A stretch of 30,667 bases of DNA from a virus: positions 1 to 30,667 of IMG/VR virus record IMGVR_UViG_3300008012_000102. One strand, written 5' to 3'. A program made the position numbers and the translations under genes. Shown here piece after piece: positions 5,001 to 24,355 of the stretch (positions are counted from its first letter, which is position 1; every line of letters begins with the position of its first letter). The notes under the pieces are model-generated. The model saw nothing but the letters and a program-made list of their open reading frames with translations, was not told where the DNA came from and ran no database searches.

Positions 5001-5566
5001 TTGATGCTATGGGATATGATGTTGTACTTGAAGAGGTCAATCAAAACTGGTTAGATTTAAACATGCAGTGGTCATATCTTGAAAAGACTTCTGATGCATT
5101 AAACAATCTTAGATCTAAGTTTAATGAAAGATACAGTGGACGAGACCCTAATGATGCTCTTACAGAAAACGAATGGAGTATGGCTGGGTATCTTTTAGAA
5201 CAAACAAAAGAAGATGGAAAATCAACAAGCTCAAACCTTATGAATAAACTTTCTAAGGTGCTTGATCTCCCCGTGGTTGATAAGGATAATAAACTTATTG
5301 AAAAACACCCAGAGGTAGAGGAAGCTACAAAGCGAATTGAAGACGCTATGATTGCTGTTGGTTATAACCCTAAAAGCCCACCCGCACAACCTACTGTGCG
5401 ACACATAAGGGCTTTTGTTCAGGCGTTTAGTAAAGAACTAAACATGCAAGGCAGACTTAATAAGATGATTGCAGAGACTAACAGAGATAAGGCTGCTCTC
5501 AAATCTGAAATAGAAAAGCAGATTGCAGACGGTAACTTTGGTGTGTTTCAATATTACGATCACTAG
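2012..5566 (+). CDS. Putative virion-packaged single-subunit RNA polymerase
   Basis: 1184 residues. The start is ATG 2012, preceded by AGGGGAAGAG and overlapping the previous gene by 23 bases; the frame is open further upstream but that part lacks a ribosome site. The first 120 residues are rich in E, Q and A. T7-superfamily polymerase motifs appear in order. A stretch around residues 522-545 (AFNTRIAPQQSTLDPTTSK) resembles the DxxGR region. Motif A is DGKTNG with Asp705. Motif B is R782xxxK786 with MT and Y794-G795; the R-K-Y spacing of 4 and 8 equals T7 R627-K631-Y639. Motif C is IYDAF with Asp993, having Tyr where T7 has His. A-to-B spacing is 81 (T7 94) and B-to-C 207 (T7 181). Its place at the end of the late virion block, separate from the T7-like polymerase on the other strand, suggests injection with the DNA, as for N4 virion polymerase (family knowledge). 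Polymerase assignment is strong; packaging is inference. Confidence 0.78.
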   Translation: MAKRQIINRTPSAVEKLQETMVTAAPEVDPNMVQKEGEAPVSPTSGSIFDRIAAQPVAEATQDNVEQQAEQVGEQVQEAVAEGSPVAPELAAIATAELESNPKRLNQKQLERAEAKKNIVKPLNERTEEDSGQWFFNAVIAEDAASDVTSGPMSDGGLVARARNLSNGVYGGTASQVQAEIEQNGKPPNGLFGIAGLTEAATNNVALNVLERLNAVDRNAGKPTRDFLQTMSVVAEDTISQLSFSEPTSLDINPGETAINDDGEVQNVTEEEIAQSTPFSKAKANRDLGTRISREFQRLRNKAEGRPTDEYQDISAEEAIALGDMAKELYWAANKTVDGKNFLVRQKANDGQVYFTLTKHGADMLKQGTARRKRMFPGKQVRTQKNPGVKLTGEAEKVTRKVSSRAGRLTGTQELNQAMANLNKVANVVDPRRLKILYLTALPVLLGQAPPDTLYASLNHVGQDKLNKFLAKAAAKTGSPTEQEAANATQEYNNLINDLAQDLRGIALERKGANYLTYYVQAFNTRIAPQQSTLDPTTSKTARFVTRNAKPSLVDSKTGTGRRIERNLRQMYAMHLVKGAGPKLPSERESMLEIATPQLVKWGISLRAAVDGVSDSKIEEISQAIEDGVSVNDPNFPQIPQLPSDLDPELLETIKKQGEDGQAYIDGLIDFANYYEVKTRAASDKLAGRSDGNYQFPSFFNAYMDGKTNGLASNGMQMGSMSVAQRTGVLRSQNTSTIDNNEDIRDELANLLLANLDDGFDGHTGEVGDYLHNIATEVFSIRALNKATTMTFGYGKELNSFKRDIREYLDLMEQEKAAEGSNYNEVALAVEALTSDTKDGRDALVEILHAKYVPSLVQVLDKRALQSRNVMRGAAMLHALSNELFTIESPTGTSLNLGGSATTGYIEGDAYKVWSDGKYSLRKVGRFGDELTAAAPRLMDDVSIPGERAYGGSVPAPVQSLDAATVIRTASGKSWSRLEAASGGAPYLHTIYDAFKVDAMGYDVVLEEVNQNWLDLNMQWSYLEKTSDALNNLRSKFNERYSGRDPNDALTENEWSMAGYLLEQTKEDGKSTSSNLMNKLSKVLDLPVVDKDNKLIEKHPEVEEATKRIEDAMIAVGYNPKSPPAQPTVRHIRAFVQAFSKELNMQGRLNKMIAETNRDKAALKSEIEKQIADGNFGVFQYYDH

Positions 5567-11956: not shown

Positions 11957-13748
11957 AATCTCCACCTTCCATACAAGTTACACCAAACATCTTTGGTCCT
12001 TCTTTAAATGACTCTTGTAAGATTTCACCAACACGATCAGCATCATCTGGATGTGCTACATAGGCGATCTCGTCATGGTAGAACAGCCGTGGCTCTGCAC
12101 GTAGTCCTTCTTCATCAATCTTATTCATAGCATAAGAAAGTGCAGACTTACATGTAATACCCTCTGCTGTTTGCAGAAGATAGTTTAGGGCCTGGTATTC
12201 ACCAGAGACAAACACAGGACGACCATCAAGCCCAGGGAACCAACCTTCACCTGTAGCGTACTGAGTACTGCGCCATACATCGCCCAGTCTGTTCTTTAGC
12301 TCTGCCAATCCTTTAATGCCTTTGGCAAAGTCTTCACGAGACTTCTTACCAGCATTAGCGTTAGGCTTACCAGTTAGAATAGAACCAAGCTTAGCATCAC
12401 CAGCGCCAAACAAGTATGCGTATAGGTAGTTTTTAGCAATGGGGCGAGAGCAACCAAGAGCATCAGCGTTTCGTTGATGTTGATCACCATAGATAACTTC
12501 ATTAGTAAACTCATCATTGCCTACGTAATGACACAGACCCCTTAGTTGGTTACCAGAACTATCAGCACCTACAACTTTCCAATTGTCATCAGGTATAAAC
12601 AGTTCCCTTAGTTCTTTACCCCACGGGGCATTCACCCCTGGAAGGTTTACAATAACTTCATGACGACATCGGAATGTTTGAGTACCGATAGTCCACATGT
12701 TACCGTGGATGCGACCATTGGAAAGAACCTCAAGCCAGCCCTTAATAACAGAGCTTCTATTACGAAGGGTATAGTACTCGCTGATCATTTTACCAAGATC
12801 CCCTAGTTTCTCTAGAGATGTATCAGTAATCTTTGGACCAACAGTAACCCACTCTCGGCCTACTTTCTTACGATTATATTCATCGGGTTTCCATCCAATT
12901 GTAAGCAACCACTCTTTAACAAGCTCCATAGAACCAAGAGTGATCTGCTCAACAGTGAAACGTTGGAAGGGTTCCCCTGCTGCGTGAACGTGTATGTCGG
13001 TTGTTTTAATTTCTTTATTGTAAAAGTCAGACAACAAACGTGCAGTTACCGCTGTGTAGTCTCCATTCTTTTTGAACTTAGGAAACTTTTCTACTTTATC
13101 TATGTATACTTTATGCGTACCCAATTGTGGGTGAAGAGTGTTTTCAATCTCAAGCATACGAACATTCATATCTTTTAGGTTCTTCTTTGCTTTTACAACA
13201 TCAAAGTTCCAACCACGAGTCTTTACACGGGCATTAAACTTGGCTGTATCATGCTCAATCAGAAGACCCTCTTTAATAGCTGGTCTTTTAGCAGCAATCT
13301 TTTTGTATTCTACCATTAGGTGGTTGAACACATCTGCATTTAGCTTTACGTCTTGTACACAGTACCTAAGCATTTCTTTAGAGTAGTTATCCCACTCATC
13401 AAATTCAATTTTAGAATTGTTGAGGTGCTCACCCCAACCCTTAAGGCCGTGCTTGTGGGGTCTTTTGTATTGCAATACCTGAGACATAATCCAGGTATCG
13501 TATATTTTCTTTTCGTTTAGTTTCAACCCATACAGTTTTTCCATAACTAAATTATCAAACCCGATAATGTTATGACCGATCAAAACCTCTGCATTGTTTA
13601 GCATAACGCAACCATCGTCCATTGATGGGATTGAGTTATCATAATCACTGAATTTGTAAGTTGATCCAGTATCTAAGTTATGTGCTACAAGGCACCATAC
13701 TTTTGTTGCATCAAAACCATCGGTTTCAATATCATATACTAGTTTCAT
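11922..13748 (-). CDS. T7-like family A DNA polymerase with 3'-5' exonuclease
   Basis: 608 residues (T7 gp5 has 704). Proofreading motifs: DIETDG (D6, E8), GHNIIGFD (H59, D65) and Y129xxxD133. Polymerase motifs: A ADSSGNQLR with Asp396, Gln401 and Arg403; B RPIAKNYLYAYLFGAG with R435, K439 and Y443; C FYHDEI with D559 and E560. Tyr443 is at the T7 Tyr526 position linked to dideoxynucleotide acceptance. Gln401 replaces the usual Glu of the steric gate. The shorter length suggests a reduced thumb insertion, which in T7 binds thioredoxin; this is inference. The start MKLVYDIETDG is typical of the family. It overlaps the HNH gene by 17 bases. Confidence 0.97.
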   Translation of the reverse strand: MKLVYDIETDGFDATKVWCLVAHNLDTGSTYKFSDYDNSIPSMDDGCVMLNNAEVLIGHNIIGFDNLVMEKLYGLKLNEKKIYDTWIMSQVLQYKRPHKHGLKGWGEHLNNSKIEFDEWDNYSKEMLRYCVQDVKLNADVFNHLMVEYKKIAAKRPAIKEGLLIEHDTAKFNARVKTRGWNFDVVKAKKNLKDMNVRMLEIENTLHPQLGTHKVYIDKVEKFPKFKKNGDYTAVTARLLSDFYNKEIKTTDIHVHAAGEPFQRFTVEQITLGSMELVKEWLLTIGWKPDEYNRKKVGREWVTVGPKITDTSLEKLGDLGKMISEYYTLRNRSSVIKGWLEVLSNGRIHGNMWTIGTQTFRCRHEVIVNLPGVNAPWGKELRELFIPDDNWKVVGADSSGNQLRGLCHYVGNDEFTNEVIYGDQHQRNADALGCSRPIAKNYLYAYLFGAGDAKLGSILTGKPNANAGKKSREDFAKGIKGLAELKNRLGDVWRSTQYATGEGWFPGLDGRPVFVSGEYQALNYLLQTAEGITCKSALSYAMNKIDEEGLRAEPRLFYHDEIAYVAHPDDADRVGEILQESFKEGPKMFGVTCMEGGDYVIGSSYADVH

Positions 13749-15053: not shown

Positions 15054-15069
15054 TATATACCCCTTATAG
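15054..15069 (-). promoter_or_regulatory. Promoter-like 16-bp repeat, copy A
   Basis: CTATAAGGGGTATATA on the minus strand, identical in five places in the window. TATA followed by a G-run resembles the start region of T7-type promoters (TATAGGG). Read this way it would start transcripts into mazG and the replication operon. TATA-AGGGG-TATA can also fold as a small hairpin. The direction of use is not proven; the opposite strand would point to the small terminase. Confidence 0.5.
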
Positions 15070-15088
15070 AATTATACCTTTTTGATGA

Positions 15089-15103
15089 CGCAGCTTGTCT
15101 GCG
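15089..15103. promoter_or_regulatory. Hairpin CGCAG-CTTGT-CTGCG
   Basis: A perfect 5-bp GC-rich stem with a 5-base loop between the divergent repeats A and B. The core CAGCTTGTCTG recurs at 22488-22498 in the other control region. Small hairpins of this size serve as promoters for N4 virion RNA polymerase on single-stranded template (family knowledge), so this is a candidate site for the virion polymerase. That role is inference. Confidence 0.3.
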
Positions 15104-15116
15104 GCATAAGATATAC

Positions 15117-15132
15117 CTATAAGGGGTATATA
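15117..15132 (+). promoter_or_regulatory. Promoter-like 16-bp repeat, copy B
   Basis: CTATAAGGGGTATATA on the plus strand, with CAATT following as in copy C. It lies 19 bases before the ATG of the small-terminase-like gene. With the G-run as start, the leader would be 28 bases with GGAG placed correctly. It diverges from copy A, giving a two-way switch point at about 15.1 kb. Confidence 0.55.
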
Positions 15133-15150
15133 CAATTTATGGAGAAAACA

Positions 15151-15555
15151 ATGCCTTTTAACCCAAAAAGTCTCAAAAACCTAAATGGTGCTTGGACAAC
15201 TGAATCTGCAAAGGCTGCACAAAAGAAAGGTGTGGCTACGCGCAAGGCTAATAAAGAAGCAAGAGAAGCTGTTAAGATGTCCATTTATGAATGGGGCAAA
15301 TATAAAGACGATGTTCTCTCTACAAACGATATGACTTCTTTGGATGTCCTTAAGATAATGATGTTTAAAGCATTAGAAAAAGATGACATGAGTACTGCAC
15401 TTGATATTGCAAAGACTCTTGCAGAATTTGAGTCACCAAAGCTTGCACGTGTTGATCAAACTAATGTTGAGATACAGGCTGAAGACTTGTCTGATGAGGA
15501 ACTGCAAGAACTTTTAGATGAAGCAAGTGCCGAAGCGAATGCCCCGCGACACTGA
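15151..15555 (+). CDS. Putative terminase small subunit
   Basis: 134 residues from ATG 15151, which follows GGAGAAAACA; the frame is open upstream through the promoter-like repeat, so earlier starts are rejected. The basic N-terminal half (KKGVATRKANKEAREAVK) fits DNA binding. The second half is helical and the end EDLSDEELQELLDEA is an acidic tail common in phage small terminases. It would recognise the packaging site and load the large terminase. No other small-terminase candidate is seen. It is cut off from the large terminase by about 7 kb of opposite-strand genes and forms its own transcription unit with a terminator at 15622-15659. The assignment rests on sequence feel and lacks a unique motif. 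Confidence 0.62.
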   Translation: MPFNPKSLKNLNGAWTTESAKAAQKKGVATRKANKEAREAVKMSIYEWGKYKDDVLSTNDMTSLDVLKIMMFKALEKDDMSTALDIAKTLAEFESPKLARVDQTNVEIQAEDLSDEELQELLDEASAEANAPRH

Positions 15556-15608
15556 TGCGTTTTGTCGGTTACCCAAAAAAGATGCATATGCGTTTTGTCG
15601 GTTACTGA
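15555..15608 (+). repeat. Two direct copies of ATGCGTTTTGTCGGTTAC (micro-ORF)
   Basis: Identical 18-bp copies at 15555-15572 and 15588-15605 are 33 bases apart, so both stay in one frame. Together they encode a 17-residue peptide, MRFVGYPKKMHMRFVGY, whose ATG overlaps the TGA of the previous gene. The first 16 bases occur a third time at 20106-20121, before a minus-strand gene. Whether it is a peptide, a protein-binding site or a recombination site cannot be told from sequence. Confidence 0.55.
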
Positions 15609-15659
15609 AAATAAATAAAAGATCCCTGAGTACACACATAAGTGTACCCAGGGATTTTT
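15609..15659. terminator. Intrinsic terminator after the small-terminase-like gene
   Basis: The stem pairs ATCCCTG (15622-15628) with CAGGGAT (15549-offset partner 15649-15655) and GTACAC (15630-15635) with GTGTAC (15642-15647), with one mismatch and a six-base loop. TTTTT follows at 15655-15659. An A-rich stretch on the other side (15608-15620) would give a T-rich run to minus-strand transcripts arriving from the small-gene block, so it probably acts both ways. Confidence 0.85.
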
Positions 15660-15661
15660 GG

Positions 15662-15841
15662 TTATACTTTAGGGCGACTACAGAAGTTACCACCAGTGCC
15701 GTTAGGGCTTCCAGCAGGTAACCGTGAGATAGAGAGGTATCCTTGGTTACTAGAGAAAGAACCCTTAGGTCCGTATTGGTTTGTAGTGCGCCGGAATTGC
15801 AGGTTCTGTCGTCCGATAGGGTTTACAATAATTTTTTGCAT
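15662..15841 (-). CDS. Hypothetical protein, last gene of the small-gene block
   Basis: 59 residues, starting MQKIIVNPIGRQNLQFRRTT; rich in G, S, N and R, with a flexible C-terminal half. The upstream in-frame extension to 15901 was not used because it overlaps the previous gene; the site before ATG 15841 (GAAAGTTTAAAGAC) is weak. The stop sits just before the bidirectional terminator, as expected for a real last gene. The family is not recognised. Confidence 0.55.
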   Translation of the reverse strand: MQKIIVNPIGRQNLQFRRTTNQYGPKGSFSSNQGYLSISRLPAGSPNGTGGNFCSRPKV

Positions 15842-15854
15842 GTCTTTAAACTTT

Positions 15855-16010
15855 CTATTGTACTGTACGAGATTGATCAAGATCTTGAAGGACAAATCCA
15901 AGATCGATATAAAGAGTGATTGCTTCTTCTTCTGTTAGAAGCACTTCTTCACCACCAAAGTCAATGGCGATTTTACCATCGGCTTCAGCATATACATCTT
16001 CTATAGTCAT
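15855..16010 (-). CDS. Small acidic hypothetical protein
   Basis: 51 residues, read directly from the sequence. It begins MTIEDVYAEADGKIAIDFGG and contains the acidic run EEVLLTEEEA. It starts by TAATG overlap with the upstream gene, which supports translation by coupling. No motif is recognised; its strong negative charge is the only notable property. Confidence 0.6.
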   Translation of the reverse strand: MTIEDVYAEADGKIAIDFGGEEVLLTEEEAITLYIDLGFVLQDLDQSRTVQ

Positions 16011-16234
16011 TACACATCATCACTATCGTCTACAAAGCCATCTTTGAAAGCATCGTGTAGGATTGCGATTTCTTCTGTACTTATAGAGCCATAGACATTG
16101 TAATGGATTAGGTCTGAATTATACCGTTTACCTTTGCTCATCCTAAGGCTTTCATTACAAACAGTGTCTAGTTTTGTAAATGCTTCTGTAGCTTTATCTA
16201 GGTGTCTTGTATATACATCGAATGATATTTTCAT
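16010..16234 (-). CDS. Hypothetical protein
   Basis: 74 residues. AAGGAAAATT lies before ATG 16234. It is mixed charged with an acidic end (DGFVDDSDDV). Its TAA overlaps the ATG of the next small gene. No membrane segment or known motif; part of the chain of coupled small genes. Confidence 0.7.
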   Translation of the reverse strand: MKISFDVYTRHLDKATEAFTKLDTVCNESLRMSKGKRYNSDLIHYNVYGSISTEEIAILHDAFKDGFVDDSDDV

Positions 16235-16242
16235 AATTTTCC

Positions 16243-16467
16243 TTATACAAATGTGTTGTGAATCGAGTTATCTACCATAGACTCTATTTCTTTTTCGTCC
16301 ATAGATAATCCTAGTTCGTTTAATTGAAAGTTTACTAAGTCTATTGTATGGGTTCTAATGTAGACTCGTGATTCATCAACGTAGTCTTGACAGAAATTCC
16401 ATTCTTGTGCTACTTCTTCTTGAACCATTTCTTCTAGTTCTATCATTATGTCTTTCATCTTGCCCAT
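16243..16467 (-). CDS. Hypothetical coiled acidic protein
   Basis: 74 residues from ATG 16467, chosen because AAAGG lies seven bases before it and the upstream gene ends there as TAATG. The frame is open further but only from a TTG that overlaps the upstream gene. The sequence MGKMKDIMIELEEMVQEEVA is an amphipathic acidic helix, probably a coiled coil. Function unknown. Confidence 0.68.
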   Translation of the reverse strand: MGKMKDIMIELEEMVQEEVAQEWNFCQDYVDESRVYIRTHTIDLVNFQLNELGLSMDEKEIESMVDNSIHNTFV

Positions 16468-16625
16468 TACATAGCCTTTAGTTTGTTGTAACGAGTCCAC
16501 CACATTTGCCAACAGAATCGGTCATTACGTTTTTTGAATAACTCTAGTAGTTCTGTGATAGCTTCATCTGGTAGAGAGTAGTCTACAGCAAACTTAGCAA
16601 AAAACTCAAAGTCTTGTTTAGTCAT
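16467..16625 (-). CDS. Small aromatic-rich hypothetical protein
   Basis: 52 residues, read directly. It starts MTKQDFEFFAKFAVDY and ends with a Trp-rich basic part, RFCWQMWWTRYNKLKAM. It overlaps the upstream gene by eight bases and the downstream gene as TAATG, so it fits the operon exactly. No family is recognised. Confidence 0.6.
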   Translation of the reverse strand: MTKQDFEFFAKFAVDYSLPDEAITELLELFKKRNDRFCWQMWWTRYNKLKAM

Positions 16626-16791
16626 GGCACACCCCAGCTTCAATTAGTTGTGTTGCGGTTCTACCAAAGAACCCTTGCAATTGCCAAGCGAGTCCAGTGT
16701 TAATCAGATGTTGCCAAGCTTCTATTGTTTGGTTTTCGTTATCTGATTCTATAAATCCTTCAGCGATACCAACGGCTGTGTAGTTATCCAT
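16618..16791 (-). CDS. Small conserved-looking phage protein (AWQ..LQGFFGR)
   Basis: 57 residues from ATG 16791. The core AWQHLINTGLAWQLQGFFGR followed by TATQLIEAG resembles a small protein found in many phages of unknown function (recognised from memory). The start is set by TAATG overlap with a tiny membrane peptide upstream; the 13-codon upstream extension lies over that peptide in another frame and was rejected. Confidence 0.72.
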   Translation of the reverse strand: MDNYTAVGIAEGFIESDNENQTIEAWQHLINTGLAWQLQGFFGRTATQLIEAGVCHD

Positions 16792-16868
16792 TACACTAGT
16801 AACCAAACAGCGACAATAACATGCAACCATCCAATGGTTTCAATCATTTTATCAATGTCAATATTCAT
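16791..16868 (-). CDS. Tiny membrane peptide
   Basis: 25 residues: an acidic start (MNIDIDKMIE), then one hydrophobic helix (IGWLHVIVAVWLLV). GAGG lies about ten bases before the ATG, and the stop forms TAATG with the next gene. One of several very short membrane peptides in the minus block. Confidence 0.45.
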   Translation of the reverse strand: MNIDIDKMIETIGWLHVIVAVWLLV

Positions 16869-16873
16869 GTTCC

Positions 16874-17164
16874 TCAATCCTCAGTAAACATTTTATCTAA
16901 GTGGTTGATTATGTCGTCTGGTAAATATTCTCTAGGAGAGTCGTAACCAATTTGGGCATCTGGGTTTGTATAAACTGATTCCTGTCCTTTTCTTACATCC
17001 ATAATCATATAATTATGTATGCCCCATGTGTCACAATCTGTTACATAACCAAGGTCATTGATTTCATTAGCAACTATGTGGGTTCCATTCCAAGAATCAC
17101 CGTCACCAAATCCGAATTTATCAAAGGCTTCTTCCCACTCCCATTCAATCATCATGTAAGGCAT
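16874..17164 (-). CDS. Hypothetical protein
   Basis: 96 residues from ATG 17164, which follows GGGAG by seven bases; the open frame upstream overlaps the lysin gene and was rejected. It is acidic and rich in Trp, Tyr and Gly (DKFGFGDGDSWNGTHIVAN). The composition suggests a small folded cytoplasmic protein. Family not recognised. Confidence 0.7.
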   Translation of the reverse strand: MPYMMIEWEWEEAFDKFGFGDGDSWNGTHIVANEINDLGYVTDCDTWGIHNYMIMDVRKGQESVYTNPDAQIGYDSPREYLPDDIINHLDKMFTED

Positions 17165-17168
17165 TGTT

Positions 17169-17588
17169 TTACTCCCATCTATAAAACACATGTTCAGCAA
17201 TCTGCACGACAGGCACCTTACTTTCAGCCCATTCAGGTAGTACATAGGTTGCATGATAATGCGTGGCACCCTCAACAAAGTCATCAAGGTTTCCTGTATG
17301 TACTCCCTGTGCGATTATTAGGGCTTGTTCCCATGCTGTTTCGTCAGGTGTTTTGTCCGATTTACCGTCACAATACCAACTAAACTGGCAGCGATGGCGA
17401 ACAGGAAAGTCAGGTTTCCAAGAATATGTTGGGCCTTGAGTGACCACTTCGCATACATCGTCAGGGTACCTGTCATCACGGACACGATTCATTACCACTT
17501 GAGCAACTGCTACTTGTCCAATAAACGGTTGATCACGGGCTTCATGATATATGTTAAGTGCAAGGCATACGAGTGCTTCAGCAAACAT
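17169..17588 (-). CDS. SleB-type cell wall hydrolase (putative lysin)
   Basis: 139 residues. The Hydrolase_2/SleB fold is shown by LNIYHEARDQP with the likely catalytic Glu17, QVAVAQVVMNRV, CQFSWYCDG (67-75) and a THYHA..V.PEWA segment near the end. These enzymes cleave peptidoglycan glycan strands. There is no signal peptide, so release would need a holin. Start ATG 17588 follows GGAGG by seven bases and overlaps the upstream stop as TAATG. It is placed inside the early-type small-gene block, far from the holin-like gene at 24452 on the other strand. Confidence 0.9.
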   Translation of the reverse strand: MFAEALVCLALNIYHEARDQPFIGQVAVAQVVMNRVRDDRYPDDVCEVVTQGPTYSWKPDFPVRHRCQFSWYCDGKSDKTPDETAWEQALIIAQGVHTGNLDDFVEGATHYHATYVLPEWAESKVPVVQIAEHVFYRWE

Positions 17589-17806
17589 TAGCAAGCCTCC
17601 AATTGTTCAATGTGTGGGTCATAGTATTCTTCTAGATATTCACAGACTTGATCCCAGTTTTCTGGGTAGAAATCTAAATCACCAGCCCAGATACCATCGT
17701 TGTATTCGTCTTCACATACAACAGAGAAATTACTATCTTCTTGAATAGTACCATAGCACCAAGTTTCTCCACCGTCTTTACGTATGTATACATGTTTATC
17801 AAGCAT
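17588..17806 (-). CDS. Acidic hypothetical protein
   Basis: 72 residues, strongly acidic and rich in Trp, Tyr and Cys (YFEN-like run DLDFYPENWDQVCEYLEEYY). AAGG lies eight bases before ATG 17806, and the gene overlaps the previous one by eight bases. An acidic small protein of this type could mimic DNA or block a host protein, but nothing in the sequence proves that. Confidence 0.68.
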   Translation of the reverse strand: MLDKHVYIRKDGGETWCYGTIQEDSNFSVVCEDEYNDGIWAGDLDFYPENWDQVCEYLEEYYDPHIEQLEAC

Positions 17807-18116
17807 AGTTAAACCTTACTGATATTTCTTGAGTGGTTGACATGACACATTTCTCGTTACGTTTGAATAGTTCAGCCTCAATTAGATTGAGACCAGAGAA
17901 TGTGGGATCGTCAGTTACAATACGAACAATCCAGACTTCTTCACGCATCTGGACAGAGTTAGTAGTACCATCAGTATTAGTACCCTCGTTGTTCCAGTGA
18001 CCAACACCGTTGTATGCTGTGCAGCCTCCATGAATATTAGTTAGAAGTGTCTTGGCATCTTCAAAGGTTTGTCTACCCACTGCACATGGGATATATACTT
18101 CATGTATGTAGCTCAT
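17799..18116 (-). CDS. Hypothetical protein with a GGCTAYNGVGHW motif
   Basis: 105 residues. The segment NIHGGCTAYNGVGHWNNEG, followed by REEVWIVRIV, suggests a small beta-rich fold; similar patterns occur in phage and bacterial proteins of unknown function, with a loose likeness to DUF3574. The ATG overlaps the upstream TGA as ATGA. No signal peptide or membrane helix. Confidence 0.7.
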   Translation of the reverse strand: MSYIHEVYIPCAVGRQTFEDAKTLLTNIHGGCTAYNGVGHWNNEGTNTDGTTNSVQMREEVWIVRIVTDDPTFSGLNLIEAELFKRNEKCVMSTTQEISVRFNYA

Positions 18117-18337
18117 TGTTCTAGTACCACTTCTGCATTAGTTTCTATCCAGACCTTAGCGCCACAGGATAGTGGTTTGTCAGGACTGTATACGACTGTA
18201 CTGCCGCCCATGATATGAACAGCGTGTGCATACTCGTTAGACTTACTGGTTTTGACAGTGATTACAGGGTTACGATTACCAGACTTTGCATTAGCCCTGA
18301 TAACATGCTGGTTGATATGGATACGTTTAAGTGTCAT
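18113..18337 (-). CDS. Small beta-rich phage protein
   Basis: 74 residues from the second of two adjacent ATG codons, with GAGG six bases upstream; the first ATG (18340) is the alternative. The frame is open further upstream but overlaps the neighbour. The segments ANAKSGNRNPVITVKTSKSN and VYSPDKPLSCGAKVWIET look like a short conserved phage protein seen in podoviruses (from memory). Function unknown. Confidence 0.7.
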   Translation of the reverse strand: MTLKRIHINQHVIRANAKSGNRNPVITVKTSKSNEYAHAVHIMGGSTVVYSPDKPLSCGAKVWIETNAEVVLEQ

Positions 18338-18596
18338 CATACACCTCACCAAAGTCCTGCCATTCTTGTTCCCAAGTGGGTTGACCCTCGTCTTCTGTAA
18401 AGTCAGGATCATACCAGTGTGGTTCTGTACCGTTTACAATGTCTGAGACAGACGCACAATATACATCATCGTTTTCATGTGTGATTGCATTGTACATAGA
18501 TAGTGCATGTTCGTAGTTTTCCGATACTTGCCAGTGATCTACGAGAGTTGGTTTATTGTCAATTATTTTTCTGATTGACCAAGCGACAATATACAT
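18327..18596 (-). CDS. Acidic hypothetical protein
   Basis: 89 residues from ATG 18596, preceded by GGAAGG at nine bases and overlapping the upstream TAA. It begins MYIVAWSIRKI and has a strongly acidic, Trp-rich C-terminal half (DPDFTEDEGQPTWEQEWQDF). No family recognised. Confidence 0.7.
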   Translation of the reverse strand: MYIVAWSIRKIIDNKPTLVDHWQVSENYEHALSMYNAITHENDDVYCASVSDIVNGTEPHWYDPDFTEDEGQPTWEQEWQDFGEVYDDT

Positions 18597-19009
18597 TATT
18601 CTACACCTTCCCAATGGTTGATCTCTGAGTCTATATCATAGCACTCTAGATCGACTTGTCCTGTCTCAAGATATACGACAACACCGTCTGGTATTCTAGG
18701 GTGCCCCTTGTGTTCTACTATTTGTGCGTAGTCAAAATCATAGTTGTTATCGAACTGCCGCAATATTAGGTTAGACCTGTGTAGTCCTTGCTCAGTTTTC
18801 CACTGATCTTCTTTGATAAGGTCTTCTTGTCTTGCACCACGAATGAATAGGCGAGACCCTTCTTCATTAAGTGTGATCCATGCATAACCATATCCGTTTG
18901 ACTCAATCTCTTCAATATCTTCATGAGATAGGTTGTAAGGAAGTTTAAAGGTTTCAGTTGCTTCCATGTATTCAGTGGCGCGAAAGTCAATTTCAATCTT
19001 GTTTGACAT
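18596..19009 (-). CDS. Acidic hypothetical protein
   Basis: 137 residues from ATG 19009, chosen because AGGAG lies upstream and the six-residue-plus extension overlaps the previous gene. Strongly acidic (many E, D) with predicted mixed helices and strands; ends DSEINHWEGVE. No cysteine motif, membrane helix or known domain. It is the largest unknown gene of the small-gene block. Confidence 0.72.
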   Translation of the reverse strand: MSNKIEIDFRATEYMEATETFKLPYNLSHEDIEEIESNGYGYAWITLNEEGSRLFIRGARQEDLIKEDQWKTEQGLHRSNLILRQFDNNYDFDYAQIVEHKGHPRIPDGVVVYLETGQVDLECYDIDSEINHWEGVE

Positions 19010-19199
19010 CTTTAAGATACTCCTGTTTCCATTCAGAGAATTGGTATCCACTCATTTCACTGAATTTGTGCAGTGTGTAGTTGTGTACCATAAGGGCAAG
19101 AACCGTTGAGTATGCTGGATGCTCTTGGTCGTTTATGTAGTCGTATATTTCATCCCATGATTTAGGAATAACTACTAGAGCTTGATTAGATAGATCCAT
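18993..19199 (-). CDS. Hypothetical protein
   Basis: 68 residues beginning MDLSNQALVVIPKSWDEIYD; helical and aromatic-rich. It starts by TGATG overlap with the upstream gene, with AGGAAAGG ten bases before. Ends 16 bases inside the next gene. Family not recognised. Confidence 0.68.
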   Translation of the reverse strand: MDLSNQALVVIPKSWDEIYDYINDQEHPAYSTVLALMVHNYTLHKFSEMSGYQFSEWKQEYLKDVKQD

Positions 19200-19432
19200 C
19201 AGTGACCAGCCTTTCCTGCGTATCCTGAACCATTTAGTCGGTGCCTAGCATCACTGGCTTCTTGCCTGTTGATACGCTCAACATCTTCCATTTGGTCACG
19301 CAGAAAGTAATACAACTGAGTCATTTGCTCTTCAACTGTTTTGTCTGATACTTTGCACCAGCATGTAAAACAAGTCTGCATGAATTGGTAGTTATCTACC
19401 ATTCTTTGTATTTTCTTTTCTGTAAGTGTCAT
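19199..19432 (-). CDS. Hypothetical helical protein
   Basis: 77 residues from ATG 19432, chosen because AGAAAGAAATCTA precedes it; the longer frame overlaps a small basic protein. It contains CFTCWCK, a closely spaced Cys triplet, within a helical charged sequence, and a Gly-rich end. Possible metal binding, not certain. Confidence 0.68.
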   Translation of the reverse strand: MTLTEKKIQRMVDNYQFMQTCFTCWCKVSDKTVEEQMTQLYYFLRDQMEDVERINRQEASDARHRLNGSGYAGKAGH

Positions 19433-19538
19433 TAGATTTCTTTCTGTTGTAAATCTTCTTTGACTGTACAACCTGTTTGCCTTGCCGATTAGTTAGCATG
19501 GTACGGGCAATTGGGTTTACTGGTTTGATTGGACCCAT
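19392..19538 (-). CDS. Small basic phage protein
   Basis: 48 residues, read directly. It starts MGPIKPVNPIARTMLTNRQG and continues KQVVQSKKIYNRKK; this pattern of P, N, V followed by a KK.Y.RKK core matches tiny basic proteins found in many phages (from memory). GGAGAG lies six bases before the ATG. It overlaps the next gene by 41 bases in another frame. The role is unknown; nucleic-acid binding is plausible. Confidence 0.65.
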   Translation of the reverse strand: MGPIKPVNPIARTMLTNRQGKQVVQSKKIYNRKKSNDTYRKENTKNGR

Positions 19539-19540
19539 CG

Positions 19541-19624
19541 TTATCTCTCCGTTGCTATGTACTTTAGAATGTTTAACACAATAAAGAGTAGCAAGATGAT
19601 GATATAAATAGATCCAAAGGTCAT
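19541..19624 (-). CDS. Tiny single-pass membrane peptide
   Basis: 27 residues, MTFGSIYIIILLLFIVLNIL followed by KYIATER: almost entirely one hydrophobic helix with a positive end. AAAAGG lies nine bases before the ATG. It lies three bases after the upstream gene and two before the next, matching the spacing of real genes here. Confidence 0.55.
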   Translation of the reverse strand: MTFGSIYIIILLLFIVLNILKYIATER

Positions 19625-19627
19625 GTA

Positions 19628-19900
19628 TTACACCTTTTCGATTTCGTATTCTGTAATGTGTTTGATTAGGCGAACTCCATCAATTACATATGCATCTGCA
19701 AGTACACCTGTAGCCTCGTCTACATAGTCTGCACGTGTAGTGATAATACGTCTGGATTTACTTACGACTGTTTCTATACGGTGTTTCTTTGCGGCATTCA
19801 TGATTGCCATTACTTCTTCTTCTGATACTCTATCAACCATAGTAAACTCTACGGTGTTGTATACTGTAGCTCTGATATCATCATCGTTATCGTTAGACAT
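19628..19900 (-). CDS. Hypothetical protein
   Basis: 90 residues from ATG 19900, which follows AAAAGGATATGGAAAT and lies eight bases inside the upstream gene. It begins with an acidic run (MSNDNDDDIRATV) and has a compact mixed-charge body (VSEEEVMAIMNAAKKHRIET). No recognised family. Confidence 0.68.
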   Translation of the reverse strand: MSNDNDDDIRATVYNTVEFTMVDRVSEEEVMAIMNAAKKHRIETVVSKSRRIITTRADYVDEATGVLADAYVIDGVRLIKHITEYEIEKV

Positions 19901-20096
19901 ATTTCCATATCCTTTTCTCGTGGTGTCCTGCCCACGAGCTTGCATTTTTTTCAGCAAACTCAAAGATTGTCCAGTCTACATCGTCACCAGTGTCATCAGC
20001 ATTAGCTTTTTCTGCATCAGCAATAGCAAGTAGACGGGTGTAAACTTTAGCTTCAAAGGAATCCTTGAGAGCATGTGGTTCTGTGAATATACTCAT
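19893..20096 (-). CDS. Hypothetical protein
   Basis: 67 residues from ATG 20096, with AGGAG four bases before. It begins MSIFTEPHALKDSFEAKVYT and is helical and acidic in the middle. The 5' untranslated side carries the third copy of the ATGCGTTTTGTCGGTT repeat, read in reverse on this strand, directly before the ribosome site. It heads the run of small genes after a 263-bp gap. Confidence 0.7.
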   Translation of the reverse strand: MSIFTEPHALKDSFEAKVYTRLLAIADAEKANADDTGDDVDWTIFEFAEKNASSWAGHHEKRIWKYV

Positions 20097-20105
20097 TTTA
20101 CTCCT

Positions 20106-20121
20106 ATGCGTTTTGTCGGTT
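20106..20121 (+). repeat. Third copy of ATGCGTTTTGTCGGTT
   Basis: Identical over 16 bases to the two copies at 15555 and 15588, 4.5 kb away. Here it cannot encode the same peptide context, since TTGAC follows. It sits 10 bases upstream of a minus-strand start codon, so a regulatory or recombination role is at least as likely as coding. Confidence 0.6.
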
Positions 20122-20194
20122 TGACTAAAATTATCCGAGAGTAGCCCAAGGTTTCCCAAGGCTATCTCTGTTGTTTGTACGAGACTCCAATAGA

Positions 20195-20247
20195 GCAGGG
20201 CGGGCTACTATTTAGCCCTGCGAACATAAAGTGTCCCGAAGGGACTC
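20195..20247. other. Hairpins in the 263-bp gap downstream of the SSB gene
   Basis: Between 20097 and 20359 there is no convincing gene. The stretch holds an outer GCAGGG/CCCTGC pairing (20195-20200 with 20216-20221) that competes with GGGCTA/TAGCCC (20202-20207 with 20213-20218), and a GTCCC/GGGAC hairpin near 20233-20245. Neither is followed by a clear T-run on the minus strand, so terminator action is doubtful; an RNA leader or processing signal is possible. Confidence 0.35.
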
Positions 20248-20343
20248 AATAATAAATATAACAAGCGCCTCCAGTGCTACAAGGTTACTAAGACCGAGCA
20301 CCAGAGTCGCTATCTGAATATGATGAGAGCAGTTTATCTTCAT
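20212..20343 (-). CDS. Possible small membrane protein
   Basis: 43 residues starting MKINCSHHIQIATLVLGLSN, with one hydrophobic helix up to about residue 32. It follows the SSB gene by 16 bases but has no visible ribosome site, and its DNA overlaps the hairpins listed here. It resembles the other tiny membrane proteins of this phage; support is weak. Confidence 0.25.
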   Translation of the reverse strand: MKINCSHHIQIATLVLGLSNLVALEALVIFIIESLRDTLCSQG

Positions 20344-20359
20344 GCTCAGGAAGTATATG

Positions 20360-20869
20360 CTAGAACAGATCGCTAGCGGAACCCTTAGGCTCTTCTGGCT
20401 CAACTGATCCAACAGCCTCAAAGTCTACACCATCTGTTGGGGCATAGACTACAAGGTCAGTAACTTGGATAGCTGTGAGTGAGCTAGCAACACCTTTACG
20501 ACCAGCAGTGTCATAAGGATATTGAAAGACAATCACGTTAGCTTTGGAACCATTACCGATTGTGGTAACTTGCTCCATTGGTGTAAGATCAGAATTGACT
20601 ACACGGACCTTACCATTGGTCTCACCGTTTGCCTTGTGTGCTTTACGCTTAAGGCTAGCAGTGAACATACCAGCGGCATCTTTGACCAGTGCACCATCTT
20701 TCCTACGGAACTTGATATAGTTGTCCTCAAGCTCTTTGACTTTAGCTTCATCAGCAGTAGCAATCTGTAGCTCATACTGTTCAGCGCCAAATGGATTGAC
20801 AGGTTTATCAAGCTTAGGATAGTTGATAGTTACGTCAGTGATCTTGAAATTACGAACTTCTGTAAGCAT
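20360..20869 (-). CDS. Single-stranded DNA-binding protein
   Basis: 169 residues. It matches the phage SSB type with an OB-fold: INYPKLDKPVNPFGAEQYEL, then KRKAHKANG, then ANVIVFQYPYDTAGRKG and a final strand ending VYAP. The C-terminus is acidic and ends SASDLF, with a terminal Phe as in T7 gp2.5 and bacterial SSBs, where the tail recruits replication partners. GGAAGG lies nine bases before the ATG. It is separated from the other replication genes and lies directly downstream of the putative structured RNA region. Confidence 0.88.
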   Translation of the reverse strand: MLTEVRNFKITDVTINYPKLDKPVNPFGAEQYELQIATADEAKVKELEDNYIKFRRKDGALVKDAAGMFTASLKRKAHKANGETNGKVRVVNSDLTPMEQVTTIGNGSKANVIVFQYPYDTAGRKGVASSLTAIQVTDLVVYAPTDGVDFEAVGSVEPEEPKGSASDLF

Positions 20870-20931
20870 GGGATATTACCTTCCTTGCAAAATACACAAA
20901 ATTGTGTTGAAGATGCGTGATCTGTAATTAG

Positions 20932-21175
20932 ACCACGACTAGCTAGTATTCACCTTTATTGGTGCCTACGGGACGCTTCTCTCCCCGTCTTGACTGTATA
21001 CAGCACTGAACATCCGAGTCTTACTCTGCGATGTGCCCCACCATACTTATAGTTGTACCGTGCTCTGGGTTCTTTTGATGTTCACTACGCTCTCACCGAG
21101 CTTCCACGTTTTTTCATTCAGTAACCATGTGTCCTATTGCTAGGCTAGACGCTTTTCCAATATGCTAGTCGTAGT
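20932..21175 (-). ncRNA. Candidate structured RNA closed by a 12-bp helix
   Basis: No ORF of note lies in this stretch. Read on the minus strand, ACTACGACTAGC (21175-21164) pairs with GCTAGTCGTGGT (20943-20932), 12 bp including one G-U that would be a C-A mismatch on the plus strand, so the minus strand is favoured. Inside are a CCTA-GCAA-TAGG hairpin with a GNRA loop (21133-21144), GCTC/GAGC (21089-21101), AGCAC/GTGCT (21002-21064) enclosing ACATC/GATGT with GAGT/ACTC (21010-21034), ACGGG/CCCGT (20968-20988) and CACC/GGTG (20951-20964). It does not match tmRNA, RNase P or 6S RNA as I know them. Short hairpins alone could be chance; the long closing helix is the main support. Confidence 0.42.
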
Positions 21176-21257
21176 TTGCAACACAGAGGGTACAGGCTAT
21201 TGTGCCTGAGTTTCAGAGATTATCTGCAGTGGTTCTGCAGTACGTAGTGATGATGAA

Positions 21258-21364
21258 GATACATCCTGCCGTTTGTTTGAATTGGTGGCTGAGGCTAATC
21301 CACTCTGGCAAGACTACTAAGGATGTATCCAATTCGAGGACGCAGCCGAGGAACGAGGTCTGCG
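21258..21364. other. Strong inverted repeats upstream of the RNA candidate
   Basis: GATACATCCT (21258-21267) and AGGATGTATC (21320-21329) are a perfect 10-bp inverted repeat with a 52-base spacer that contains GTGG/CCAC. Just after comes CGCAG/CTGCG (21341-21345 with 21360-21364), the same stem as the hairpin at 15089. Its loop contains CCGAGGAACGAG, which occurs again at 22196-22207. Together with the preceding entry this fills the 504-bp gene-free stretch 20870-21373. Confidence 0.45.
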
Positions 21365-21373
21365 GCCCCATAG

Positions 21374-21535
21374 TTATCTGAGAGATTCTATAAGTACTAT
21401 GATTGATACTACAGTACCTATGGTTACAATCTCTTTGTTTCTGAGTATCCAAGGTCCATTACCAATAGTGACCCACTGGCACAGAAAGAGAAGTGTGTAA
21501 ACAAACACAGAGATTAGTATTACTGCTGTGATCAT
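21374..21535 (-). CDS. Small two-helix membrane protein
   Basis: 53 residues, read directly. Two hydrophobic helices (MITAVILISVFVYTLLFLCQ and TIGTVVSIIVLIESL) flank a short loop with a basic NK.. segment. The ATG overlaps the TGA of the upstream membrane gene (ATGA). The ribosome site is weak, so translation is probably coupled. The third of a tandem of three membrane proteins; possible holin-like or superinfection role, not shown. Confidence 0.6.
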   Translation of the reverse strand: MITAVILISVFVYTLLFLCQWVTIGNGPWILRNKEIVTIGTVVSIIVLIESLR

Positions 21536-21696
21536 TTGCTGAAATCCACAAGTGTCAATGAGTAGGTAATGACACCAGTGATAGTCATAATACCACAGAT
21601 GGCAATTATGAATACGTGTGAGTCAGATACAGCAGCAAGGAATGATAGCACAAACCCTACGAGAGTGAGCACTAGACCGATAATAGTGTTGTCCAT
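21532..21696 (-). CDS. Small two-helix membrane protein
   Basis: 54 residues, read directly. Helices MDNTIIGLVLTLVGFVLSFL and FIIAICGIMTITGVITYSL are joined by a short polar turn (SDSHV). AGGGGACTAAT precedes the ATG, and its stop overlaps the next start. It lies two bases after the upstream membrane gene. Function unknown. Confidence 0.65.
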   Translation of the reverse strand: MDNTIIGLVLTLVGFVLSFLAAVSDSHVFIIAICGIMTITGVITYSLTLVDFSK

Positions 21697-21697
21697 A

Positions 21698-21814
21698 TTA
21701 GTCCCCTAACCATTCGTTGATCATGATAATGAACGGGATTGAAAGAAACACCACAAGACCAGCAACAGCTGTTAGTGTGGCAAATACCCAGATAGCAAGC
21801 AGTACATCAACCAT
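21698..21814 (-). CDS. Small single-helix membrane protein
   Basis: 38 residues: MVDVLLAIWVFATLTAVAGL continuing VVFLSIPFIIMINEWLGD. One long or two short hydrophobic helices with an acidic end. GGAAAGG lies nine bases before the ATG, directly after the upstream stop. First of the tandem of three membrane proteins. Confidence 0.62.
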   Translation of the reverse strand: MVDVLLAIWVFATLTAVAGLVVFLSIPFIIMINEWLGD

Positions 21815-21815
21815 C

Positions 21816-22022
21816 TTATTGACCTTTCCAGAATACAGTGATTACAACAGTAACCTCTGAGTTAGTGACAACGTACATACCAGTAGAGTTGTCAATGAAT
21901 GTGAACTTAGCAGAGTCAGTACGATTGACCATCTTGACACCGTTGTTGACTGTGTTGATGATATCTTTGACTGTGCCTCCACGTTGTGACAGGCGAGACT
22001 TAGCGTGTTTAGTGATACGCAT
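21816..22022 (-). CDS. DUF4258-like small protein
   Basis: 68 residues from ATG 22022 (AAAGGATCTGTC before it). MRITKHAKSRLSQRGGTVKDI, then a central AKFTFID, then VTVVITVFWKGQ, recall DUF4258, a small RelE-like fold with a HA.xRxxxRG N-terminus. Some members are linked to toxin systems, but no antitoxin partner is seen and no activity should be assumed. It is the second gene of the block in transcription order. Confidence 0.6.
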   Translation of the reverse strand: MRITKHAKSRLSQRGGTVKDIINTVNNGVKMVNRTDSAKFTFIDNSTGMYVVTNSEVTVVITVFWKGQ

Positions 22023-22072
22023 GACAGATCCTTTCTGAATCCATGAGTGATGATGAGTATCCCTAAGGACAC

Positions 22073-22144
22073 TCAACGCTCTTTAGCAGCTAGAGCTTCT
22101 TTGTGGTTGAAGTAGACGACTCCGTTGACAACATAATATGTCAT
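22073..22144 (-). CDS. Tiny peptide, first gene of the minus block
   Basis: 23 residues, MTYYVVNGVVYFNHKEALAA ending KER. A good site, AGGAG six bases upstream, supports ATG 22144. The frame is open to 22480 but that part crosses the promoter-like repeats and has no site. It could be a leader peptide or a small early protein. Confidence 0.42.
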   Translation of the reverse strand: MTYYVVNGVVYFNHKEALAAKER

Positions 22145-22244
22145 GTAGTGCTCCTGTGTTAGAATAAGAAGATACTTATCCACTGTGAAGACAAACCGAG
22201 GAACGAGTGTTTGGCTCTTATAGATCTCAATGTGTGCTATGAGT

Positions 22245-22272
22245 ACTCTATGTATATATAGGTATATAGAGT
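22245..22272. repeat. AT-rich inverted repeat
   Basis: ACTCTATGTA pairs with TATATAGAGT around an eight-base loop, with one G-U wobble when read on the plus strand. It lies 18 bases before repeat copy C. It could be an operator or hairpin promoter; no T-run follows that would suit a terminator. Confidence 0.4.
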
Positions 22273-22289
22273 TACTTCCACAGCCTTTT

Positions 22290-22305
22290 CTATAAGGGGT
22301 ATATA
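22290..22305 (+). promoter_or_regulatory. Promoter-like 16-bp repeat, copy C
   Basis: CTATAAGGGGTATATA followed by CAATT, identical over 21 bases to copy B. In the G-run direction it points toward the large terminase, 298 bases downstream of the G-run. The opposite strand points into the minus small-gene block. Confidence 0.5.
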
Positions 22306-22384
22306 CAATTGAGCATTGTCCCAGAGGTTCCTTTAAGACCTCTCCCAGTACTCCCAATCGGGTAATAGTCTTAGTAATGGGTCC

Positions 22385-22400
22385 TATATACCCCTTATAG
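22385..22400 (-). promoter_or_regulatory. Promoter-like 16-bp repeat, copy D
   Basis: Same 16 bases on the minus strand. With copy C it forms a pair 79 bases apart facing each other in the G-run direction, so their transcripts would cross. Read the other way the pair diverges, toward the terminase and the small-gene block. This is why orientation is left open. Confidence 0.5.
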
Positions 22401-22484
22401 ATACTAAAAGGACGTTTAACAGCGCATAGAAGCCCACTGAGAGCCTCTAAGACCTCTGAGAGTACTTGGGATACCACCATGAGG

Positions 22485-22501
22485 CCACAGCTTGTCTGGG
22501 G
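22485..22501. promoter_or_regulatory. Hairpin with shared CAGCTTGTCTG core
   Basis: CAGCTTGTCTG at 22488-22498 is identical to the loop and inner stem of the hairpin at 15089. Here the stem is CCaCAG/CTGgGG with one mismatch. It lies 93 bases before the large terminase start. Candidate site for the virion RNA polymerase by analogy with N4; inference only. Confidence 0.28.
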
Positions 22502-22593
22502 CTACGTAGGGGGTCTGAAAGTAATGTGGGTACCTATATATATTGTTGCTTTAATCAGGCTTACTCAAAGGCAACCAAGAGGACACAAGACAC

Positions 22594-24246
22594 ATGAACA
22601 AGAAAGAACTAGCTAAACTACTCAAGGAAAAGCAGAGAAGGTCTAGGATTAAAGGATATCAAGAGGACTTTACTAGGTTTGCAGAAGAACAAATACAGAT
22701 CGTCACTAAGGACGTATCCAGGGGGTTCGTACCTTTTAAGTTTAACGAAGCTCAAAGAATAATTACAGAAAAACTAGAGGAACAAAAGAATGCTACTGGT
22801 AAAGTTAGGGCAATTATACTCAAAGCTAGGCAGCAAGGTATCTCTACCTATTGCGCTGGACGAGTCTTCTGGAAGAGTTACTACACTCCCTATGCGAGAT
22901 CAGTTGTCATGGCGCATGATTCGGCTACGTCTGATGCTCTATTCGCTATGTCAAAGAACCTTATCCGTAATATGGAAGGTGATCTTGCTCCCAAAGAACT
23001 TCGTAGTAACGCTAAAGAGATTATCATTAACAGTCCTGCTATGGTTGATAAAGAAGCTACTGCTAGTTATCGACTATATACAGCGGGGTCTCCAGAAGCT
23101 GGTCGAGGTACTACACCGACTATAGCCCACTGCTCAGAGGTAGCCTTTTGGCAACATGATGAGAAGATCCTTGCAGGTCTCTTCCAGGGTATCTCACAGG
23201 CTGATGGTACTGAAGTTATCCTGGAGTCTACTGCTAATGGTGCCCAGGGGGAGTTCTATAGGCTCTGGAAGGGTGCTGAGATGGGGGAGAACGAATACCT
23301 ACCTATCTTCCTACCGTGGTATATAACCCCAGAATACACTAGGGAACCCCCAGAGAACATGGAGTTGACAGTTGAAGAAGAAAAACTACGAGACAAACAC
23401 GGACTCGACAACGGACAACTCTACTGGAGAAGACTCAAGATTGCAGAAGGTGGAGAACTCAAGTTCAAACAAGAGTACCCCTCAACAGCTGACGAAGCGT
23501 TTATTATGTCAGGATCTAACGTCTTCAACTTGGAGCGTTTGGACGCACTAGTACCACAGTCATATGAGAGAAGGTCTGAATGGGACCCTGCCTCAAAGAT
23601 GTTTGATGAAAATAGAGAAGGTTCCTTGTACATATATCAGTTTCCTGATTGGAATGAACCTTATGTGGTTGCTGCTGACGTAGCGCTAGGTGTGGGGCAA
23701 GACTACTCTGCTGCTGTTGTGTTAAATAAGCGGTATGAAGTTGTAGCACACTATAGGAACAATAAGATTGACCCTAGTATGTGGGGAGAAGTATTGTTTT
23801 ATCTAGGTCGTTACTATAACAATGCCCTGTTAGCTGTAGAATCTAACAGTATGGGTATTGCTACCCTGCAGAAACTAGACAGTACAGGCTACATAAACCT
23901 ATATAAGCAGACTAAAATAGCTAATGTGTCTTCAGAAGAGGGTGTTAGGCTAGGGTTTAGAACTACATCTGCTACAAAACCAGCTATTATAGCAAACCTA
24001 AAGAATCTTATAGAAAATGAAGAGATACTTATACCCTCTGTACAAATAATCAAGGAACTTAAGGACTATATATCTACAGATACAGGTAAAACAGAGGCTG
24101 CACCTAATTGTTATGACGATTCAGTTATTGCATTAGCTATAGGTTGTGAGGTATTACGTACACATTGGGACAGATTGGGAACTTCAAATGTCTCATGGAA
24201 ACAAAAGATGTCTACTGTAGAACAAGCTGAGGTTAACTGGTTATAA
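22594..24246 (+). CDS. terL: Terminase large subunit
   Basis: 550 residues. The ATPase half has a Walker A-like loop KARQQGIST (77-85), an acidic Walker B region AHCSEVAFW (178-186) and the coupling motif ESTANG (211-216). The nuclease half has Asp362 in ADVALGVGQDYS, Glu416 in AVESNSMG and Asp508/509 in CYDDSVIA, the RNase H-like acidic triad. It pumps DNA into the prohead through the portal and cuts it. GAGG lies 11 bases before the ATG. The small subunit candidate is 7 kb away in a separate unit, which is unusual. Confidence 0.96.
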   Translation: MNKKELAKLLKEKQRRSRIKGYQEDFTRFAEEQIQIVTKDVSRGFVPFKFNEAQRIITEKLEEQKNATGKVRAIILKARQQGISTYCAGRVFWKSYYTPYARSVVMAHDSATSDALFAMSKNLIRNMEGDLAPKELRSNAKEIIINSPAMVDKEATASYRLYTAGSPEAGRGTTPTIAHCSEVAFWQHDEKILAGLFQGISQADGTEVILESTANGAQGEFYRLWKGAEMGENEYLPIFLPWYITPEYTREPPENMELTVEEEKLRDKHGLDNGQLYWRRLKIAEGGELKFKQEYPSTADEAFIMSGSNVFNLERLDALVPQSYERRSEWDPASKMFDENREGSLYIYQFPDWNEPYVVAADVALGVGQDYSAAVVLNKRYEVVAHYRNNKIDPSMWGEVLFYLGRYYNNALLAVESNSMGIATLQKLDSTGYINLYKQTKIANVSSEEGVRLGFRTTSATKPAIIANLKNLIENEEILIPSVQIIKELKDYISTDTGKTEAAPNCYDDSVIALAIGCEVLRTHWDRLGTSNVSWKQKMSTVEQAEVNWL

Positions 24247-24339
24247 TCCTATACTACTATATATACGGATAAATAGGCCTCAAACCCTTAGTGGAAGCCA
24301 AATAGTAATTTAATCTATGCACTATTTTGTGTGTTAATC

Positions 24340-24355
24340 TATATACCCCTTATAG
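24340..24355 (-). promoter_or_regulatory. Promoter-like 16-bp repeat, copy E
   Basis: Same 16 bases, G-run on the minus strand, in the 205-bp gap after the large terminase. In that direction it would run antisense into the end of terL; in the other it would serve the structural operon from 24452. It is the copy that argues most against a simple G-run start model. Confidence 0.5.

Follow-up and report, generated by a model that had tools for sequence, protein, structure and literature searches.

A clade-variable 16-mer proposed as a T7-type promoter in an uncultured marine podovirus group

The repeated 16-mer and its setting

In this work we describe a 16-mer repeated in a virus record of 30,667 bp (IMG/VR record IMGVR_UViG_3300008012_000102), analysed over its whole length and referred to here as the window, which represents about half of a marine podovirus genome of ~58.5 kb. 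Genes in the window encode a 772-aa T7-type RNA polymerase (RNAP), a DNA polymerase, a primase-helicase, MazG, terminase, portal and capsid, the terminase large subunit (22594) being identified by PHROGs and Pfam. Read as CTATAAGGGGTATATA, the element has five exact copies, at 15054-15069 (-), 15117-15132 (+), 22290-22305 (+), 22385-22400 (-) and 24340-24355 (-); on the opposite strand it reads TATATACCCCTTATAG. An earlier note on this DNA had reported five identical copies, and both count and positions proved exact: allowing up to three mismatches, shuffled sequences contained a mean of 0.34 copies and never attained five, while CTATAAGGGGTATATA is the sole 16-mer with five copies in the window, order-2 Markov simulations yielding a maximum of two.

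A search of the window for copies with one to three mismatches found none beyond the five exact ones, so that the claim that the element occurs nowhere else holds within the window; it does not extend to a near-complete relative (G001; 58,751 bp, with identical 280-bp ends and the same layout as the window), which carries a further copy in its late region, beyond the extent of the window, at 22613-22628 (+), 34 nt before a ribonucleotide reductase gene. The related claim that copies mark every change of gene direction was too broad, since the genes on either side of the 24340 copy both run rightward, and no copy is present at the convergent junctions at ~5.6 kb and 15.6-16.0 kb. Scanning IMG/VR for the 16-mer pattern matched at least 118 stretches. 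The element is not palindromic, a search against Rfam returned no match, and a TATA-AGGGG-TATA fold suggested for its core was dropped, its predicted stability being zero. The five copies, in the sense TATATACCCCTTATAG, and the polymerase proposed to read them are as follows.

15054-15069, + strand: putative T7-type promoter TATATACCCCTTATAG for rightward transcription of the gene at 15139/15151, with 15069 as predicted +1; exact copy, comparative orientation, 49-nt overlap with the leftward transcript
15117-15132, - strand: putative T7-type promoter for leftward transcription of mazG (15046) and the replication/RNAP operon, with 15117 as predicted +1; exact copy facing the 15054 copy, RNAP gene downstream
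22290-22305, - strand: putative T7-type promoter for leftward transcription of small early genes and an SSB-like gene, with 22290 as predicted +1; exact copy, co-directional with the next leftward open reading frame (ORF)
22385-22400, + strand: putative T7-type promoter for rightward transcription of the terminase large subunit gene (22594), with 22400 as predicted +1; exact copy, back-to-back with the 22290 copy at 110 bp
24340-24355, + strand: putative T7-type promoter for rightward transcription of the post-terminase genes, towards portal and capsid, with 24355 as predicted +1; exact copy, co-directional in this orientation only
5882-8200, - strand: T7-type single-subunit RNA polymerase of 772 aa, proposed cognate enzyme; Pfam RNA_pol E=1.5e-55, specificity loop at residues 632-667

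Clade variants, orientation and the specificity loop

Relatives of the 772-aa enzyme group by identity into clade A, which includes the window (85-100%), and clades B (~63%), C (60-61%), D (59%), E (56%) and F (37%), the last represented by Roseobacter phage CRP-7, the nearest isolate found by its RNAP. Each clade has its own repeated element at equivalent places: TATATACCCCTTATAG in A, TATACTC[TC]CCTT[AT]TAG in B (representative 16-mer TATACTCTCCTTATAG), TATATACCCCTTAAAG in C, GTATAAGTCCCTTTAG in D, TCTAAGTTCCTTATAG in E and AGTCC[CA][TC]TATTAAAAG, mostly followed by GGA, in F, where exact 12-mer counting missed it and mismatch-tolerant counting in intergenic DNA detected it. In clades A to E the element precedes both the ribonucleotide reductase gene and the 15.1-kb gene, and the sites before the 15.1-kb gene, terminase and ribonucleotide reductase are kept across clades while the sequence of the element differs; in the CRP-7 group one copy stands immediately before the RNAP gene. 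Across clades A-E one end is near-constant (CCTTATAG, with variants CCTTAAAG, CCTTTTAG and CCCTTTAG) and the opposite, GGGG-side end varies. Numbered from a putative +1 at the terminal G, which is present in every clade, conservation covers -15 to +1, with TATA, TAAA, TTTA or a TTTA-like sequence at -4 to -1, and the initial transcribed letters would be G/A-rich (GGGA or GAGA in clades C, E and F). The poor conservation of flanking bases, which had been held to distinguish the element from T7 promoters, is explained if the unit comprises a recognition and unwinding block from -15 to +1, but modest conservation does extend to +2 to +4 in several clades.

The promoters of T7, T3 and SP6 share the core CACTATAG at -7 to +1 with a polymerase-specific block upstream (PMC13029058, PMC10138996), and T7-class promoters are described as a specific region at -8 to -12 and a common region at -7 to +1 (PMC9596486). 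The elements described here resemble this class in having an AT-rich upstream part, a specific block at about -12 to -5, an A/T melting region at -4 to -1 and a G at +1, together with a cognate single-subunit polymerase in the same genome (Pfam RNA_pol, fold Z 28.8). They differ in their core, which is CCTTATAG, CCTTAAAG or CCCTTTAG rather than CACTATAG, in their number of five to seven copies per genome, in serving both directions of transcription and in forming a conserved face-to-face pair. The 16-mer very probably works like a T7-class promoter without being the T7, T3 or SP6 consensus, and the earlier suggestion of a T7-type element is supported by the CTTATAG-like end that is kept across clades and matches -5 to +1 of T7-class promoters. 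A distant T7-like RNAP has been described for CRP-7, the paper reporting no promoters (PMC6918029); the CRP-7-group element detected here is likewise repeated, intergenic and in gene direction, and it ends AAAAGGGA, like the AAAGGGA of T3, with 5' ends expected at GGGA after TATTAAAA.

Because the shared end resembles the T7-class -7 to +1 core, with the specific block upstream of it, we fix the strand so that the element ends TATAG with +1 at the G. This orientation, very probably the correct one, is opposite to that preferred in the earlier note (TATA, then GGGG), although the note rightly left the orientation undecided and remarked that a gene lies downstream of all five copies when the other strand is read. 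We compared the two readings using 72 copies from 23 records, which are partly related and not all independent, with ORFs from a simple caller. In the TATATACCCCTTATAG-type reading the next ORF is co-directional at 65 of 67 scorable copies, and in the reverse reading at 33 of 69. The difference comes from isolated copies lacking a close neighbour (38/39 co-directional in the TATAG-ending reading against 7/41), while paired copies do not discriminate (27/28 and 26/28). Seven copies in this set lie within ORFs of 80 aa or longer, and several of these ORFs are doubtful upstream extensions.

The AlphaFold2 model of the 772-aa enzyme (pLDDT 76.9) matches T7 RNAP with a Z of 28.8, and the residues of its catalytic motifs do not vary among 25 relatives. 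The specificity loop of T7 RNAP, which we take to be residues 739-770, aligns to residues 632-667 of the window enzyme. In an unbiased scan that ranked 20-residue windows by how much they differ between clades and how little within them, the top 15 all fell in this loop, whose divergence relative to the rest of the protein was 0 to 0.96 within clades and 1.17 to 1.86 between them. A tree of the RNAP built without the loop places clade C apart from A, in a group with B, D and E (95/100); clades A and C nevertheless have in common their recognition block and, within the loop, the motif GH[KQ]G[VI]NHVA. Promoter distances correlate with loop distances at r=0.63 (p=0.05), compared with r=0.17 for the remaining protein. 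These comparisons are supportive, though not conclusive, of a recognition block that changes along with the specificity loop of the polymerase.

A proposed promoter system and its alternatives

We consider it highly likely, at a probability of roughly 0.88, that the five 16-mers are T7-type promoters of the phage's own 772-aa RNA polymerase, with initiation at the final G; initiation itself, the +1 position and the identity of the bound polymerase are what we infer from the copies, their positions, the clade variants, the gene directions and the loop covariation. In the proposed layout of TATATACCCCTTATAG, TATA at -4 to -1 would serve as the melting region, ATACCCCT at about -12 to -5 would be read by the specificity loop, and an upstream contact would be made through the AT stretch that reaches -15/-17. 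The five copies, with the ribonucleotide reductase copy of more complete relatives, would drive the replication/RNAP operon, the early operon, the 15.1-kb gene, terminase and portal/capsid, and the circuit would be self-amplifying because the polymerase gene lies downstream of the 15117 (-) copy. At 22.3 kb the two copies are arranged back-to-back at a distance of 110 bp. Those at 15.1 kb (15069+/15117-) form a face-to-face pair, and each predicted 5' leader therefore crosses the opposing promoter, the two leaders overlapping by 49 nt; such pairs, with overlaps of 49-68 nt, recur in clades A, B and D. Leaders at this site would be ~70-82 nt long rather than the 17 and 28 bases once proposed. 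Strong 5'-terminal mRNA hairpins are predicted only for part of the sites in clades A, D and E, and a general hairpin of this kind after every start was unsupported, the mean z being near or above zero in clades B, C and F.

Several observations weigh against this interpretation. A face-to-face pair is mechanically awkward, and the reverse reading turns it into an ordinary divergent one; the window copies begin with G then A or G and not GGG; the covariation derives from five clades only, without full phylogenetic correction; the specificity loop is modelled at low confidence (pLDDT ~51-58); and the CRP-7-group element, which belongs with an RNAP only 37% identical and has another sequence, also differs in spacing, which makes its homology to the elements of other clades unsure.

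The reverse reading itself, a T7-type promoter CTATA-AGGGG with a start at the A/G run, would give short mazG and 15.1-kb leaders from a divergent pair, and keeps paired copies co-directional (26/28). It nevertheless appears improbable, as it renders isolated copies mostly antisense into the upstream gene, and places the start on the side that varies between clades while the T7-like CTTATAG letters sit at the other end. Even less probable is that the 16-mer serves the second single-subunit RNAP that the genome does encode (1898-5566, described below). That protein varies to 38-47% identity inside clade A, where the 16-mer is constant, and the 16-mer therefore tracks the 772-aa enzyme, with whose loop it also changes. 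A protein-binding site for a repressor, or a replication or packaging factor, would fit an element that is short, invariant, intergenic and paired at regulatory junctions, yet we give it a similarly slim chance: the 16-mer is neither palindromic nor folded, its orientation to the downstream gene is consistent, it covaries with the polymerase specificity loop, and a single copy stands inside the late operon before ribonucleotide reductase.

A second polymerase, hairpins and neighbouring features

Besides the 772-aa enzyme, the window and its early strand hold the following features.

1898-5566, + strand: second single-subunit RNA polymerase, of no more than 1222 aa, encoded by the final gene of the structural operon; catalytic motifs, PHROG matches, AlphaFold2 fold
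15072-15108, - strand: hairpin between the face-to-face promoters, then GG (15078), candidate early promoter; covarying stem, model E=1.6e-14
21324-21369, - strand: hairpin with long loop, candidate early promoter; model E=1.5e-9
22175-22218, - strand: hairpin with long loop, candidate early promoter; model E=1.3e-7
22469-22505, - strand: hairpin, candidate early promoter; model E=1.6e-10
15622-15655, no strand assigned: terminator-like hairpin (14-bp stem) at which both the rightward gene of 15.1 kb and the early operon, running leftward, end; consensus scan

The second polymerase carries DGKTNG (motif A), R-x3-K-x7-YG (motif B, with the spacing of T7 R627/K631/Y639), YDAFK (motif C) and a DxxGR-like motif, and its AlphaFold2 model (pLDDT 86.6) matches T7 RNAP with a Z of 25.6 and the N4 mini-vRNAP with 22.7. 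Among its relatives, 33 of 46 match an RNAP PHROG and three of 46 a virion RNAP PHROG. Sequence searches were less informative: its profile found no polymerase in the PDB, tblastn against isolate phages found no match, and comparison of the profile with CRP-7 gp33 and with the 772-aa RNAP fell below significance, though the catalytic motifs align. Its location at the end of the structural operon and the three virion RNAP PHROG matches mark it as a candidate virion polymerase.

The four hairpins of the window form a family (e.g. GCCGCAG-ACAAG-CTGCGTC, followed by ~8 nt and GG) in which five of seven stem pairs are altered on both sides and the loop is either ACAAG or a longer sequence that includes CTCGTTCCTCG. 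All 14 strong hits of the hairpin model lie on the early/replication strand, in clade A only; outside clade A model R1 found nothing strong. By analogy with N4, where the virion polymerase uses hairpin promoters and a second polymerase acts later (PMC4496689), these hairpins may be promoters of the second polymerase for early genes, the main alternative being an RNA leader element. A search for sigma-70 promoters, through which the host might drive early transcription, revealed no excess over shuffles. The likeness to N4 extends to a virion-operon single-subunit polymerase of N4/T7 fold, hairpins on the early strand and a second phage polymerase. Unlike N4, however, the later-acting enzyme here would be one T7-like chain reading sequence promoters rather than N4 RNAPII, the virion-type enzyme has ~1,200 aa (at most 1222) against ~3,500, and the stems of the hairpins are longer and their loops different. 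Alteromonas phage R22Y is likewise a marine podovirus with two predicted RNAPs, one of virion type, for which promoters were not reported (PMC11705849), although its virion RNAP, of 2,083 aa, is longer. Tentatively, and at slightly less than even odds, we envisage a hybrid programme in a widespread uncultured marine podovirus group, in which a compact virion-type polymerase would start early genes from DNA hairpin promoters, the T7-type polymerase would then take over at the 16-mers, and the face-to-face pair enclosing a hairpin promoter would act as a switch between the replication operon and the 15.1-kb gene.

Five polymerase-promoter pairs, with a sixth in the CRP-7 group, offer a natural record of covariation between promoter letters and specificity-loop residues, and changes of specificity in T7-type polymerases are therefore directly testable. 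These analyses also provide a predicted map of transcription in a marine phage lineage whose functional annotation is sparse, expose in it a second polymerase that is probably virion-borne, and identify an unusual conserved face-to-face promoter pair as a compact test case for transcriptional interference.

Further observations concern degenerate elements and the surrounding genes. A two-mismatch copy, TATATACGCCTCATAG, lies upstream of the DNA polymerase in relatives (G001 50028-50043, -; G004 31535, + strand as searched) and is absent from the window; it is possibly a weak promoter. At the leftward early promoter of clade E, two degenerate copies stand alongside in G008 (12989-13174, -) and tandem GAGAGATACT repeats in G009 (42287-42477). 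The 15622-15655 hairpin lies between convergent genes, with a T run after the stem on both strands. Within the early region, ~900 bp at 20.9-21.8 kb have no convincing ORF and hold one hairpin. After terminase, G001 carries a ring-hydroxylating oxygenase-like gene (L202:2308-3360; Pfam E=5e-6) where the window has small ORFs only. Three copies of ATGCGTTTTGTCGGTT occur at 15555-15616 and 20106-20134, two in tandem right after the 15.1-kb gene, as also seen after this gene in relatives, and one in the early region.

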